A DNA stretch of 64,000 nucleotides from Sulfurimonas sp. HSL1-2 (lineage in GTDB: Bacteria; Campylobacterota; Campylobacteria; Campylobacterales; Sulfurimonadaceae): positions 2,105,573-2,169,572 of the forward strand of contig NZ_CP147914.1 in NCBI RefSeq assembly GCF_039645565.1. The letters run 5' to 3'. The stretch's first letter is position 1, and every line of letters begins with the position of its first letter. The notes beneath the pieces are model-generated. The model ran no database searches, was not told the origin of the DNA, and worked only from the letters and a program-made list of their open reading frames with translations. Below are positions 33,135 through 41,232 of the stretch, piece after piece. The position numbers and the translations under genes were made by a program.

Positions 33135-33209
33135 TCCGGATTAGCTCAGCGGTAGAGTAGGTGACTGTTAATCACTTGGTCACTGGTTCGAATCCAGTAT
33201 CCGGAGCCA
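33135..33209 (+). tRNA. tRNA-Asn(GTT), CCA encoded
   Basis: 75 bases including CCA. The acceptor strands TCCGGAT and ATCCGGA pair fully. The D arm contains AGCTCAGCGGTAGAGT; the anticodon stem GGTGA/TCACT frames the loop CTGTTAA with anticodon GTT; and the T arm has GGTTCGAATCC. An integrase gene ends 78 bp downstream, so its 3' end is the likely insertion target of the island. Confidence 0.97.
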
Positions 33210-33262
33210 CTTTTTCTGTAACCCCCAAACACCGGACTTTCAAAGAAACAACTTCAAGCACT

Positions 33263-33289
33263 GTGCCCGAATTGTGCCCATAAGTGCCT
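33263..33289. repeat. Phased GTGCC repeats between tRNA-Asn and the integrase
   Basis: GTGCCC at 33263-33268, GTGCCC at 33274-33279 and GTGCCT at 33284-33289, spaced 11 and 10 bp, about one helical turn. Their position between the tRNA and the integrase stop suggests integrase or excisionase binding sites near the attachment site. Confidence 0.45.
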
Positions 33290-34352
33290 AGAGCACATCC
33301 GCCAAAAACACAGCCCTTTTCTTATCTTTCTGCTTGCGATACTTCGCGTACATCTGCAGGGTCATAGACGTGTCCGTATGCCCAAGCATATGCGAGACCC
33401 AGAGAATATCTTCCCCGTTTTCGATCATCACCGTCGCGAAGGCATGGCGCATCTGGTAGATGGTACGGTATTCAATATCAAGCTTTTCGAGCAGCTTTTT
33501 CCAGCGGGTGTCACGAATGCGCTTGATATCGTAGTAGTGCTCACCGTTCTTATTGAGAAAGACATAGGTGCCCTGCTCTCCCGTCCGCTCGTACTGCGCC
33601 CTGAGATAAGGCAGCAGCGGATCGAGGATATCAATGGTACGGATACTGCTTTGCGTCTTCGGTGTCGAGACGACACCCATCTTGATCGCCCGCTTGATGG
33701 AGATCTCTCCTCTTTCGAAATTGACATCTTCCCATCGCAGTCCGATCATCTCTCCGCTTCGCATCCCTGTAAAGAATCCCAGGGCACTGAAGGTCTGAAG
33801 ATCGCCTTCGGCGTTTTCGATGATTAGCTTCATCTCGTCCATCGTGAACGGGGCAACATCCACCTTATCGATTTTGGGAAGCTTCACTTTCGAGACCGGG
33901 TTCTTGTCGATGATCTCGTCGCGTATCGCATCCTCGAAGAAGGTGTTGAGCACCGCCCGGACATTGCGCACCCGTCGCGGCGCAAGCGTCTGAAGCAGCT
34001 CATTCTGCCACAGAGCGATATCCGAAGGCTTGATCCTGTCCAGCCGTTTCTTGCCCAAACGGGGGGCGATATGCAGACGCAGTGAGGTTGCGTAGTCATA
34101 CTTCGTCGAGGGCTTGCGGTGATGCTCGTGCAGCGCGAAGCTGACCTGGGCGTATTCGCTTACCGTCGGTATGGTTGTTTCTTTTTCAAAGAACGTTCCC
34201 GAGTTCAACTTGTAGATGATCTCGGGAAGTATTTTATTGGTCGCTAGTGCGCGATTTGCCTTGTTGTCATCCAGTCCCAAAGAGCGTCTATATCTCTTTG
34301 ATTGATGATAAAACGTTATCCACAACTTGCCGTTGCGTGTAATCAGTTTCAC
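33288..34352 (-). CDS. Tyrosine-type site-specific integrase
   Basis: A phage-type integrase of 354 residues: an N-terminal arm-binding region, a SAM-like core-binding domain (about 62-155) and the catalytic domain (about 165-345). Catalytic residues seen: Arg198 (GMRSGE), Arg302 and His303 (YQMRHAFAT), His325 (LGH) and Tyr335 (MYAKY). The position that is usually His in HxxR is Tyr299, a change found in other integrases. The GTG start at 34352 has GGAAAGGA upstream; longer readings run into the preceding gene. The gene ends next to tRNA-Asn, as for elements that insert in tRNA genes. It seems intact. Confidence 0.92.
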   Translation of the reverse strand: MKLITRNGKLWITFYHQSKRYRRSLGLDDNKANRALATNKILPEIIYKLNSGTFFEKETTIPTVSEYAQVSFALHEHHRKPSTKYDYATSLRLHIAPRLGKKRLDRIKPSDIALWQNELLQTLAPRRVRNVRAVLNTFFEDAIRDEIIDKNPVSKVKLPKIDKVDVAPFTMDEMKLIIENAEGDLQTFSALGFFTGMRSGEMIGLRWEDVNFERGEISIKRAIKMGVVSTPKTQSSIRTIDILDPLLPYLRAQYERTGEQGTYVFLNKNGEHYYDIKRIRDTRWKKLLEKLDIEYRTIYQMRHAFATVMIENGEDILWVSHMLGHTDTSMTLQMYAKYRKQKDKKRAVFLADVL

Positions 34353-34614
34353 GGTCGTCCTTTCCGACCACCCAAGAGTCAATCGCAACTCTATCAAAGA
34401 GTATTTTACCCGTTCGATTGTGAAAGTGCACTCCTTCTATGAAATGCTCATCTTTCATCTTGTAGATGCGATCCTTGGAGTAGCCAAGATATTCGGCAAC
34501 TTCTTTGACGTTCAACCACCGTTTGGTATTCGACGTCTCTAGCTTCATAGAGAGCTCGTCTATTCTTTTTAGTAGCAGTGGAATGAGGTTAATGTTTTCC
34601 AGTGACAGTTCCAT
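34288..34614 (-). CDS. Helix-turn-helix protein, excisionase/AlpA-like
   Basis: A small protein (108 residues from ATG 34614, with AGGAG seven bases upstream). The central part, WLNVKEVAEYLGYSKDRIYKM, is a MerR/excisionase-type HTH and is followed by a short wing (GKILFDRVAIDSWV). The N-terminal 35 residues are leucine-rich and may be a coiled coil. It lies directly upstream of the integrase, overlapping its start by 65 bp, which is the usual place for a recombination directionality factor or integrase regulator. The exact role is inferred from domain and context. Confidence 0.75.
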   Translation of the reverse strand: MELSLENINLIPLLLKRIDELSMKLETSNTKRWLNVKEVAEYLGYSKDRIYKMKDEHFIEGVHFHNRTGKILFDRVAIDSWVVGKDDRETDYTQRQVVDNVLSSIKEI

Positions 34615-34653
34615 TGCAGACTCCTGATTGGCGATTTTCGTCAACGAAGTAAG

Positions 34654-38290: not shown

Positions 38291-39301
38291 CTAATTTTTC
38301 ATTTCCATTAATCTCAGTGCAAGTTTAATCATTTGTGAAACGTATCCAACTTCGTTGTCTTGCCAACCCATCAGTCTGACAAACTTTCCCCCCACATTCA
38401 CCGTCCGCTTTTTTTCAATCGTGATCCCGTGAAGGTCACCGATAATATCGGACGATGCAAGGACATTTTCCGTCACGGCCAGAAGTTCTTTATACTCATT
38501 GTGTGCTGCATGTTCAAATATCTTGTTGAGATCTTCTGCATGTATCGATTGTATGAGCTGCATACTGAAATCGTAAAGTGTCCCTGCAGGTACAGGCACC
38601 CGAATACTATGGGTTTGAATACGGCCATCGAGTTGCGGCAATAACTTCTCCACGGTAACTGTAGCCGAACTAGAAAGGGGTAATATATTTGAGGAAGCGC
38701 TTCTGCAACGAAGCAGTTCAGAGGTATTCACTAGCACATCGAGCAGCTTCTGTTCTGCAGTATAGCTATGGATCATGGATACACTTGCGGCTTCCACACC
38801 GGCATATTCATTCAGCAGTTTTAGCACGGGGGCAATAGCATTCGCGCTGCAGCTCGCCGCTGATACTATCCTCTCGCCCTGATACTGATCATCGTTGATG
38901 CTTCCGATAAACATCGGCATATCATCCAGTGGCGGTGCCGACACGATGATCTTTTTCACACCGCTGTTAAGAAAAGGCTGATTGGCCCTGCAGGTGAGAT
39001 GTATCCCGGTACACTGAAAGAGAATGTCAATATCCAAGTCGTACAGAGCCTTTGACTCCACCTTCTCTTCGTTAAAAAGTGGAATTATCCTGTCCGCGAC
39101 CATGATGCGGTCATTTTTCTGTTCAACACCATATCGTAGCCGGCCATATACCGAATCAAACTGCAATAGATATGCAAACTGTTCCCGCATATAGATATCG
39201 TTTATGCCGACAATTTCAAAGCGGTCATCTTCAAGCAATCTGCGCATGAGCGCCCGCCCTATCCGCCCGAATCCGTTGATAAAGACATTGATTTTTTTCA
39301 T
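38291..39301 (-). CDS. Glyceraldehyde-3-phosphate dehydrogenase-like protein
   Basis: 336 residues with the NAD-binding start INVFINGFGRIGRALMRRLL, active-site Cys151 in SAASCSANAIAP (usually SNASCTTNCLAP) and the base His178 (MIHSYTAEQ), and a C-terminal WQDNEVGYVSQM instead of the usual WYDNEWGYS. The catalytic pair is kept, but the flanking motif and the phosphate-site residues differ, so this is a divergent paralogue; GAPDH or erythrose-4-phosphate dehydrogenase activity is possible. It stands alone beside the island and near respiratory genes, not in a glycolytic cluster. Confidence 0.75.
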   Translation of the reverse strand: MKKINVFINGFGRIGRALMRRLLEDDRFEIVGINDIYMREQFAYLLQFDSVYGRLRYGVEQKNDRIMVADRIIPLFNEEKVESKALYDLDIDILFQCTGIHLTCRANQPFLNSGVKKIIVSAPPLDDMPMFIGSINDDQYQGERIVSAASCSANAIAPVLKLLNEYAGVEAASVSMIHSYTAEQKLLDVLVNTSELLRCRSASSNILPLSSSATVTVEKLLPQLDGRIQTHSIRVPVPAGTLYDFSMQLIQSIHAEDLNKIFEHAAHNEYKELLAVTENVLASSDIIGDLHGITIEKKRTVNVGGKFVRLMGWQDNEVGYVSQMIKLALRLMEMKN

Positions 39302-39334
39302 AGTGAGATTATAAACCAGTCGGCATGTGCATCA

Positions 39335-39440
39335 TTCGGGTAAGCAGTAACTGTTCTGGTGTAATTGGAGTGTTGTGAATCGAATGAAGTTGCAAGGTTT
39401 CTTTCGCACAGTTACTGCTTACCCGAACCGCCCGAAGGCG
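39335..39440. repeat. Inverted-repeat element 1 with adjoining CGCC-CGAA-GGCG hairpin
   Basis: A perfect 20-bp inverted repeat (39335-39354 and 39408-39427, outer end TTCGGGTAAGCAG) separated by 53 bp, then a hairpin CGCC-CGAA-GGCG at 39429-39440. On the minus strand the order is: end of the cytochrome gene, UUCG-loop hairpin (likely terminator), long stem, AT-rich loop, closing stem. The same layout recurs at 39902-39999 with a different stem sequence. Confidence 0.75.
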
Positions 39441-39483
39441 ATATTCATATTGGTTAGTTGTGTATATACAATTTACCTGCCCA

Positions 39484-39855
39484 CTAATATCTTTCGAACA
39501 GGTAGTTCGAAATTTCCCGTAATTCTTCCTCGGTGAAAAGCGACTTTTGTGAAGGCATAATCCCGCCGAAACGCGCGATAGTCTGTTTAGGAAAAAGCAT
39601 CTTGTCTTCTGACGGATTTTGCATATACTCCACCATGAACTCTACTGCTTTCTCACGTTCCGGATAAGCCGCTTTTACTTTTTTCATCACGCCCCACATC
39701 GGTGGCGCTTTCATTGTAGCGACTCGCTCCGGAGACAGGTTGCTCACCAAATGACAGCTTGCACACCCACTCTCTACCTTTTGTTCCAGTGATGCCATTG
39801 GTTCCGATGCGTAAGCAAACGTTATCAGCAAAAGAACAAACAATATATTTTTCAT
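39484..39855 (-). CDS. Periplasmic monoheme cytochrome c
   Basis: 123 residues with a signal peptide (cleavage near YAS-EP, about residue 17) and one heme site CASCH (Cys31, Cys34, His35). A distal methionine is likely in GGIMPSQKSLF near the C-terminus. Small class I-like electron carrier; the partner is unknown. It lies between two structured repeat elements and downstream of a porin gene on the same strand, beyond that gene's terminator. Confidence 0.85.
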   Translation of the reverse strand: MKNILFVLLLITFAYASEPMASLEQKVESGCASCHLVSNLSPERVATMKAPPMWGVMKKVKAAYPEREKAVEFMVEYMQNPSEDKMLFPKQTIARFGGIMPSQKSLFTEEELREISNYLFERY

Positions 39856-39901
39856 TGGAATTCCTTTTCACGTTATTGTATCGCGAATCGAGGGGGACGA
39901 C

Positions 39902-39984
39902 TTGGTCAGGCAGCGGCTTGATGAAACTCTCGAGTTACATAGGAGTGAATGAATCGGTTACGCTTTGAAATGCTGCCTGGCCAA
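39902..39984. repeat. Inverted-repeat element 2
   Basis: Stem TTGGTCAGGCAGC (39902-39914) against GCTGCCTGGCCAA (39972-39984), 13 bp with one G-T pair, around a 57-bp AT-rich loop. Followed by the CCGCC-CGAA-GGCGG hairpin. The loops of elements 1 and 2 share a CGATTCA...CACTCC stretch on the minus strand, so the two appear related. Confidence 0.7.
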
Positions 39985-39985
39985 A

Positions 39986-39999
39986 CCGCCCGAAGGCGG
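39986..39999 (-). terminator. Terminator hairpin after the porin gene
   Basis: CCGCC-TTCG-GGCGG on the minus strand followed by TTT, starting 10 bases past the porin stop. The UUCG tetraloop gives high stability. Confidence 0.75.
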
Positions 40000-40008
40000 G
40001 AAGGCGAC

Positions 40009-41232
40009 TTACTTCGTTGAGAATTTATAGTCGAGCTGTGCCCAGACCTTGGTGACGTCGTTGCCCGTGTCGCCTTTGGAGTAGAAAGCCGCTTTCGCCA
40101 GGAACGCGAGGTCCTTGACGCCCGGGACCTTGTTCGCGTAGAGCACGTCAAACTCGCTGCCGAGGTCCTTGTTTGCGCCGGAGAGGGCGTCAAACTTGTG
40201 GTAGACGCCCAGCACTTTCCCGAAGCCCGCCGCGGCATATCCCAGCGTACCGCTCAGGTCCGCCAGACCGTCGTTGTTGCTTCCGGACGTGCGACCGAGG
40301 AAGACGTCCGCCCACCCCTGGAACTTGTGCAGGGTCGCCAGCGGGGTCGTGAACCCTTTCGTGCTGTTGCTTTCGGCATCACCGAGCACCTCATACTCCG
40401 CCCCGACAATGAGGCCGGAGATGTTCGCGCCCAGGGCGACGTCATAGTAAGCAGCATCGATCTCCGGCGCATCATCGAGAGCGTAGGTCAGCGAGGCGTC
40501 GCTCTGCTTTGCATAGGAGGCCGCATAGTTCAGCGTCACGCCGTCCAGGGCGATATCCCCGGAGACGCGCAGACCGTAGGTGTCGTGAATGTCTGCAAGC
40601 ATATAGCCGAACCCTGTGACGGAGAGCGCCTTGCCCGCCGAGTACGTAGCGTGCAGGAGCAGCGAGCCCGTATCGGTCGTCGGGTTGGCGTTGACCCCCT
40701 GGTAACCGTAGATCCAGGAGGCCATGAGGGAGAGGCCCTCGATGGAACCGTTGGTCAGCGTCACCGTGTCGTAGGCACGCTCCATCTGGCGCCAGCCGAC
40801 GGTACCCACAAAGCGCTGGTCGTCGAGGTTGACGAAGGAGCGTCCCGCGAGCAGCGTCGTGTCCGCCGCCGTATAGGCCAGGTATCCCTCGGTCAGGATC
40901 GCCTGCTGCGGGTCGAGGATAAGGTCATAGGTCGCATCCTGCGGCGCGTAGTCGTTGTAGCCGAAGTTGTTGACCGAGGTCATCCCCACTTTGGCGGTGA
41001 GCCCTTCAAGGCCGAGGAGCGTCCCTTCGACCGCGAGGCGCGTCCGGGCGGTAAAGGCGTTGGCCGTATCGAGGCCGTTGTCTTTGACGTCCGCCATCTC
41101 GTAGCGCGGGCGGATCTCGCCGCTCATTTTCATTCCGTCCAGGAGGACGATCTCTTCGGCCGCCGACGCGGCCACACCCATACTTCCCACAATAACCGGC
41201 ACGGCGGCCAAAGACAACATCACTTTTTTCAT
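40009..41232 (-). CDS. Outer-membrane porin
   Basis: 407 residues with a signal peptide ending near ASA-AEE (residue 24), alternating beta-strand pattern throughout, several Tyr/Phe girdle residues, and a C-terminal LDYKFSTK that ends one strand. It resembles the campylobacterial major porin and OprD/alginate-export-like groups by general layout; the substrate is unknown. Its start lies 30 bp downstream of the cytochrome c gene at 41263-41556, so both are likely read from the promoter at 41587-41629, which matches those of napA and moaA. This would make it a nitrate- or NO-responsive porin. Confidence 0.8.
   Translation of the reverse strand: MKKVMLSLAAVPVIVGSMGVAASAAEEIVLLDGMKMSGEIRPRYEMADVKDNGLDTANAFTARTRLAVEGTLLGLEGLTAKVGMTSVNNFGYNDYAPQDATYDLILDPQQAILTEGYLAYTAADTTLLAGRSFVNLDDQRFVGTVGWRQMERAYDTVTLTNGSIEGLSLMASWIYGYQGVNANPTTDTGSLLLHATYSAGKALSVTGFGYMLADIHDTYGLRVSGDIALDGVTLNYAASYAKQSDASLTYALDDAPEIDAAYYDVALGANISGLIVGAEYEVLGDAESNSTKGFTTPLATLHKFQGWADVFLGRTSGSNNDGLADLSGTLGYAAAGFGKVLGVYHKFDALSGANKDLGSEFDVLYANKVPGVKDLAFLAKAAFYSKGDTGNDVTKVWAQLDYKFSTK

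Follow-up and report, generated by a model that had tools for sequence, protein, structure and literature searches.

Introduction

RNAs of the RepG type in Helicobacter and Campylobacter act through a C/U-rich, pyrimidine loop on G-rich leaders, without Hfq. The Salmonella RNA NarS, from the 3′UTR of narK, represses nirC (PMC9438474). MalH originates at the 3′ end of malEFG and acts as a repressor of ompC and ompA (PMC9438474, PMC8081044). MicF and MicC are linked to a porin and repress another porin (PMC5745476), and the anti-Shine-Dalgarno motif in the 3′UTR of icaR acts on its own message (PMC3868564). RNase E, Hfq and ProQ are all absent from Campylobacter jejuni, a studied relative of the organism investigated here (PMC8687705). 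In environmental Campylobacterota, gene control at the post-transcriptional level has received little attention.

Here, we compare two related structured elements, A and B, with these systems. In our judgement they probably represent a 3′UTR RNA family belonging to the message of a nap-linked porin in Campylobacterota, which would pair in trans with the start of a second porin gene and most likely block its translation.

Results and Discussion

The window, the whole 64-kb stretch of DNA that was analysed, bears on its minus strand in this order nap-type genes, a PAS protein, a cytochrome c, a porin, element B, a small cytochrome c, element A and a GAPDH gene. The nap-linked porin gene (40009..41232, minus strand, 407 aa, Opr/Alginate_exp-like) was assigned from its ORF, weak Pfam and NCBIfam porin matches, the family alignment and element-bearing homologues elsewhere. 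Its message is the host of B (39900..39998, minus strand), a hairpin with a long stem-loop that starts 10 nt past the porin stop codon and scores 106.6 bits with R1, a covariance model for which A and B were the sole input. The UUCG hairpin of B (CGCC-TTCG-GGCG, 39987..39998, minus strand) has no T-tract behind it. The arms (39902-39914/39972-39984) comprise 13 positions with one C-A mismatch and enclose a loop of 57 nt. For its segment GTAACCGATTCATTCACTCC (39942..39961, minus strand), the predicted pairing partner is the start of the second porin gene, which in the window genome is G000:C1:550334. Element A (39334..39440, minus strand, 122.5 bits with R1) lies instead behind the small cytochrome c gene (39484..39855, minus strand; ORF, Cytochrome_CBB3 match below cut-off), 43 nt past its stop codon. 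Here, the UUCG hairpin (39429..39440, minus strand) is followed by arms at 39335-39354/39408-39427 with 20/20 bp paired and a loop of 53 nt. In the loop segment AACTTCATTC-G-ATTCACAACACTCC (39367..39391, minus strand), the AACTTCATTC part is the complement of GAATGAAGTT, which lies at the second porin's start codon.

UUCG hairpin, GTTYGG lead, stem layout and the loop motif CGATTCA-(2-3 nt)-CACTCC are common to A and B. The preliminary description of two related elements with the same layout and different stems could thus be reproduced for hairpins, stems and loops alike. The hairpin CGCCTTCGGGCG occurs twice in the 64 kb compared to 0 expected. Among the stems of this geometry detected by scanning the window, A is by far the longest; arms of 13 nt with a single mismatch occur twice, B being one of these cases. 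With RNA folding z-scores of -6.0 for A (minus strand) and -1.2 for B, only A is significant by folding energy.

The stems of A and B can be aligned without gaps over 14 pairs, four of which are changed on both sides and one of which is broken. Six copies, namely A, B and those in G061, G172, G153 and L176, align gap-free in both arms. In this alignment 92.2% of the cells are paired, double-sided changes occur in 7/15 pairs, and 0/500 shuffles reach the observed pairing and covariation. Shifting the partner by one base lowers the pairing to 35-40%. The core AGCAG(T/C)A is common even to deeper relatives. The 4/14 double-changed pairs between A and B and the covariation in the six copies support the earlier view that structure kept over sequence marks a selected element.

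A search with R1 over the own 2.52-Mb genome returned two copies, both at this locus; a weak match on the plus strand is the palindrome of A read backwards. In 100 relatives, matches were obtained in the near twin G010 and in G061 (5e-8), G172 (3e-5) and G153 (0.0017), the latter three each directly 3′ of a homologue of the window's porin. The covariance search suggested in the preliminary description therefore revealed nothing further in the own genome and several copies in relatives. The absence of additional copies in the genome, named there as an argument against the elements, applies literally, not in its intent, as relatives carry copies. In 74 kb, R1 found copies behind porin homologues in L095, L096, L176, L097, L107, L128, L118 and L168 with E values of 2e-9 to 0.14 and nothing beyond these eight. 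For extra copies, porin homologues were collected and their 3′ ends inspected by eye and by stem scan. Hairpin, long stem and pyrimidine loop were also seen 3′ of the porin in G015, G037, G188, G184 and G167, as well as in L163, L167, L168, L169 and L176, which are Nitratiruptor, Hydrogenimonas and other Campylobacterota MAGs. The 3′ end in G015 is identical to that in L149, a Sulfuricurvum MAG. Many porin homologues have no element, e.g. those of G003 and G016 and a paralogue in the window genome itself (G000:C1:702393-703610, L131).

The protein of this paralogue is 99% identical to the window porin at 40009-41232, from which it lies 1.4 Mb away. Leader and 3′ end of L131 are wholly different, with an own hairpin and a ATGTTTTTT...AAAAAACAT stem, and the sequences suggest a recent duplication or a gene conversion confined to the coding region.

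Exact-pattern searches for more copies returned the locus itself, the near twin G010 and one chance match inside a coding gene of G061 only. Loop-motif matches elsewhere in the genome had no stem, blastn against plasmids gave nothing, and Rfam covariance searches yielded no family match at the gathering score. The RNA family of A and B, from sulfur-oxidising relatives of Campylobacter, had thus not been listed before and has no counterpart in Rfam or in the literature searched.

The inverted repeats between successive genes and the tandem copies that flank a small gene would suit a palindromic repeat that is mobile (MITE or REP) or a recombination site of the integron type bounding gene cassettes. 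A mobile repeat family and a recombination site had been named in the preliminary description; neither is supported, and we consider both highly unlikely. REP and MITE elements come in many dispersed copies; the genome holds just two in 2.52 Mb, and elsewhere one element is found per porin gene, always behind the same porin family. The copies thus track one gene family and not moving blocks. The attC-like outer boxes RYYYAAC...GTTRRRY are absent, the ends reading GTTYGG ... CCRAA(T/G) in the opposite layout. Neither a transposase nor an integron integrase adjoins the elements, and the integrase found at 33288-34397 is part of another, tRNA-linked island. At 33135-34644, a small HTH protein and a tyrosine recombinase behind a tRNA gene mark where an integrated island ends; it has no relation to A or B.

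From the end of either element it is 30-45 nt to a start codon, as might be expected of a cis-acting 5′ leader for the genes that follow, i.e., the cytochrome c gene after B and the GAPDH gene after A (38291..39301, minus strand, outside the element). However, the GAPDH orthologues in G061, G007 and G156 have no element upstream, and across the other genomes the neighbouring gene that comes next is either unrelated or convergent. The cis-acting function for following genes considered in the preliminary description is hence already largely refuted, and its probability is very nearly negligible. The GAPDH gene itself is a second, diverged copy with orthologues of 53% identity in G061 and 48% in G007; the usual GAPDH is located at G000:C1:1981462.

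The loops resemble the antisense of a Shine-Dalgarno sequence with start codon. In Sulfurimonas, the 3′UTR of the same porin bears AAATTTCATAT..ACTCC just upstream of an AAGCAG stem. A family-wide pattern search revealed that the antisense of this seed recurs there where the genes of a single orthologous family begin, a Porin_4/Opr-type porin (MKFTKMSLVAALLIGSSAFAI...); the same search also matches rpiB starts, in other genera. This second porin (G000:C1:550334-551656 in the window genome) belongs to a family other than that of the nap-linked porin. In every element-bearing genome searched, it was then identified through homology of the protein rather than through complementarity, with the target choice in Sulfurimonas guided by its own seed pattern. 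Starts of the GGAG-TGAATCG type in the window genome had also been considered as target; they belong to several unrelated genes and provide no conserved target.

In ten genomes the loop has perfectly complementary runs of 10-21 nt to the second porin, over Shine-Dalgarno sequence and start codon or in the 5′UTR. The longest run was found in G184 (21 nt), followed by G167 (17 nt), G172 and G001 (14 nt each), G031 (13 nt), G037 (12 nt, in the leader at -28), G053 and G039 (12 nt each), G188 (11 nt) and G153 (10 nt). In the window genome, A reaches 10 nt and B 8 nt, with bulged extensions. G061 shows 8 nt with 6 more after one bulge, and in G015 the pairing is imperfect with 6 nt. Among the ten, four Sulfurimonas genomes account for runs of 12-14 nt. 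With targets from other clades, runs extend to 6-10 nt at most. When loops and targets were re-paired between clades, the true partners were the best of 720 combinations by run length and the second-best by energy. Since the Sulfurimonas target had been found with its own seed, this clade was left out of a second re-pairing, in which the true partners were the best of 120 by both run length and energy. A compensatory change is seen at position -1, where G184 combines the target GAATG with the loop CATTC and G167 the target GGATG with the loop CATCC. Overall, the comparative case for the predicted complementarity between loop and second porin is strong.

The position of the pairing site varies. 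The loop of L118 (G037) has no anti-Shine-Dalgarno motif; its 12-nt match to the second-porin leader is placed 28 nt before the start codon, so that the pairing site is shifted. In Sulfurimonas (L273-L286), the start region of the second porin is nearly repeated in its leader (ATATGAAATTTGTA), about 30 nt ahead of the start; this is a second possible seed site with a perfect match of 14 nt in G001. For L167/L169 a start of the second porin near ATGAAACTGGC is predicted.

In the window genome, the predicted duplex of A joins AACUUCAUUC to GAAUGAAGUU across the start codon of G000:C1:550334 and continues with AUUC past one bulged G. The predicted duplex of B comprises GUAAC, UUCAUUCA and CUCC with bulges between them. 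The 10-nt run of A exceeds that of any of 53 window gene starts. The duplex energies are equalled by 8-9 of these 53 starts and the run length of B by six. Since this match alone is not outstanding, the target case rests on the cross-genome comparison. The second porin is a plausible, not proven, target of the window's own copies, for which the sequence match is suggestive.

The start of the own porin was our initial hypothesis for the target and was dropped after a swap test. In such an autoregulation in cis or trans, as for icaR or OppZ, the 3′UTR would pair with the Shine-Dalgarno sequence of its own porin. The loops do contain anti-Shine-Dalgarno motifs, and a GGAGT tends to precede the start codon of element-bearing porins, which is not so for porins without element. 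By energy, the own start is favoured by A (-24.6 vs -18.7 for the second porin) and by G015 (-26.6 vs -23.2), so that energies are mixed with respect to the superior own-start complementarity of an icaR-type element. By run length this superiority is not found: the longest own-start run is just 4-7 nt in 14/14 cases and always below the second-porin run. Own starts also rank no better than swapped starts, and the porin of L165 has GGAGTAAG yet a plain terminator. Taken together, we regard pairing with the own porin as quite unlikely.

The position right past a stop codon, the UUCG tetraloops and the long stems would equally suit a terminator or stability hairpin of the porin operon that has no specific partner. 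Yet a T-tract and any terminator-like match are absent at A and B on either strand, and the succession of GC stem and T-tract typical of an intrinsic terminator is not found at either element. Were the UUCG hairpin a terminator, the loop would be made only by read-through, but no T-tract is present there. Additionally, a terminator leaves unexplained why the loops track the start of the second porin clade by clade. We therefore consider this function unlikely.

We return to the trans-acting 3′UTR RNA as the best explanation. This was not proposed in the preliminary description, of which the selected structured RNA remains. The family stands 3′ of the porin, its stem covaries, and the complementarity of its loop is conserved in a clade-specific manner. 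As is characteristic of trans-acting RNAs from mRNA 3′ ends, B and its relatives lie in sense orientation close behind the stop of a coding gene and are conserved there. They also contain an unpaired stretch whose complementarity to the beginning of a gene encoded elsewhere is conserved, though weaker in the window genome. We infer that a stable RNA is made, that it acts in trans, that pairing represses, and that A, as a sibling copy, shares the target of B.

Mechanistically, the short GC hairpin and the long, sequence-variable stem may hold the pyrimidine-rich loop open. The loop would be antisense to the ribosome-binding site and start codon or to the 5′UTR of the second outer-membrane porin, encoded elsewhere in the same genome. 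As no terminator-like site is present at A or B, the RNA is presumably transcribed with the operon. It could then remain part of the porin/cytochrome message or be excised from it, perhaps by a double-strand nuclease such as RNase III. RNase III-type release has a precedent in another RNA of this phylum (PMC8687705). Pairing would block ribosome loading on the second porin, and induction of the nap-linked porin would thus lower the second porin. In the window the porin adjoins nap genes, in G061 it lies beside denitrification-type genes (identified by eye), and in G005 and G023 (L120, L122) a napD-like gene, also assigned by eye, is found directly 3′ of it. The latter speaks for a connection between the porin family and the periplasmic nitrate reductase, and these neighbourhoods together point towards a likely porin exchange during nitrate respiration.

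With less assurance, though still on balance, we favour a wider reading as an ancient, Hfq-free porin-switch RNA of Campylobacterota, by which the 3′UTR of the nap-linked porin would silence a general porin. Stem, seed position (start codon, Shine-Dalgarno sequence or upstream leader) and seed sequence would have drifted by clade with target complementarity being kept, and the RNA would have been doubled into two tandem siblings in the window genome.

Conclusion

If this explanation is true, a switch from porin to porin is tied to nitrate respiration, and its targets can be predicted at the base level in many species. An RNA seed would then have been re-invented while the target stayed, making RNA-target coevolution directly testable.

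In comparison to known systems, the A/B family is new but of a known kind; its design is unusual in that the seed sits in a loop closed by a long stem that drifts freely. NarS is likewise an RNA from the 3′ end of a transport gene of nitrate respiration that acts in trans on another transport gene. It is, however, enterobacterial and cut by RNase E, its target is a nitrite importer rather than a porin, and a seed in the loop of a long stem sets the A/B family apart from it. MalH shares the origin at the 3′ end of a transport operon and lowers general porins, as is predicted for A/B, whereas its host gene is no porin and no sequence or structural relation to A/B was found. As with MicF and MicC, one porin locus would silence another porin at its translation start; those RNAs are stand-alone genes beside a porin, while the RNA of the A/B family lies within the porin's own 3′UTR. 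The icaR message also has a pyrimidine motif in the 3′UTR that pairs with a Shine-Dalgarno sequence, but there the own start is bound, which for the A/B family is the poorer match by run length. RNAs of the RepG type come from the same phylum and share the pyrimidine loop; they differ in genes and targets, and A/B have no Rfam match.
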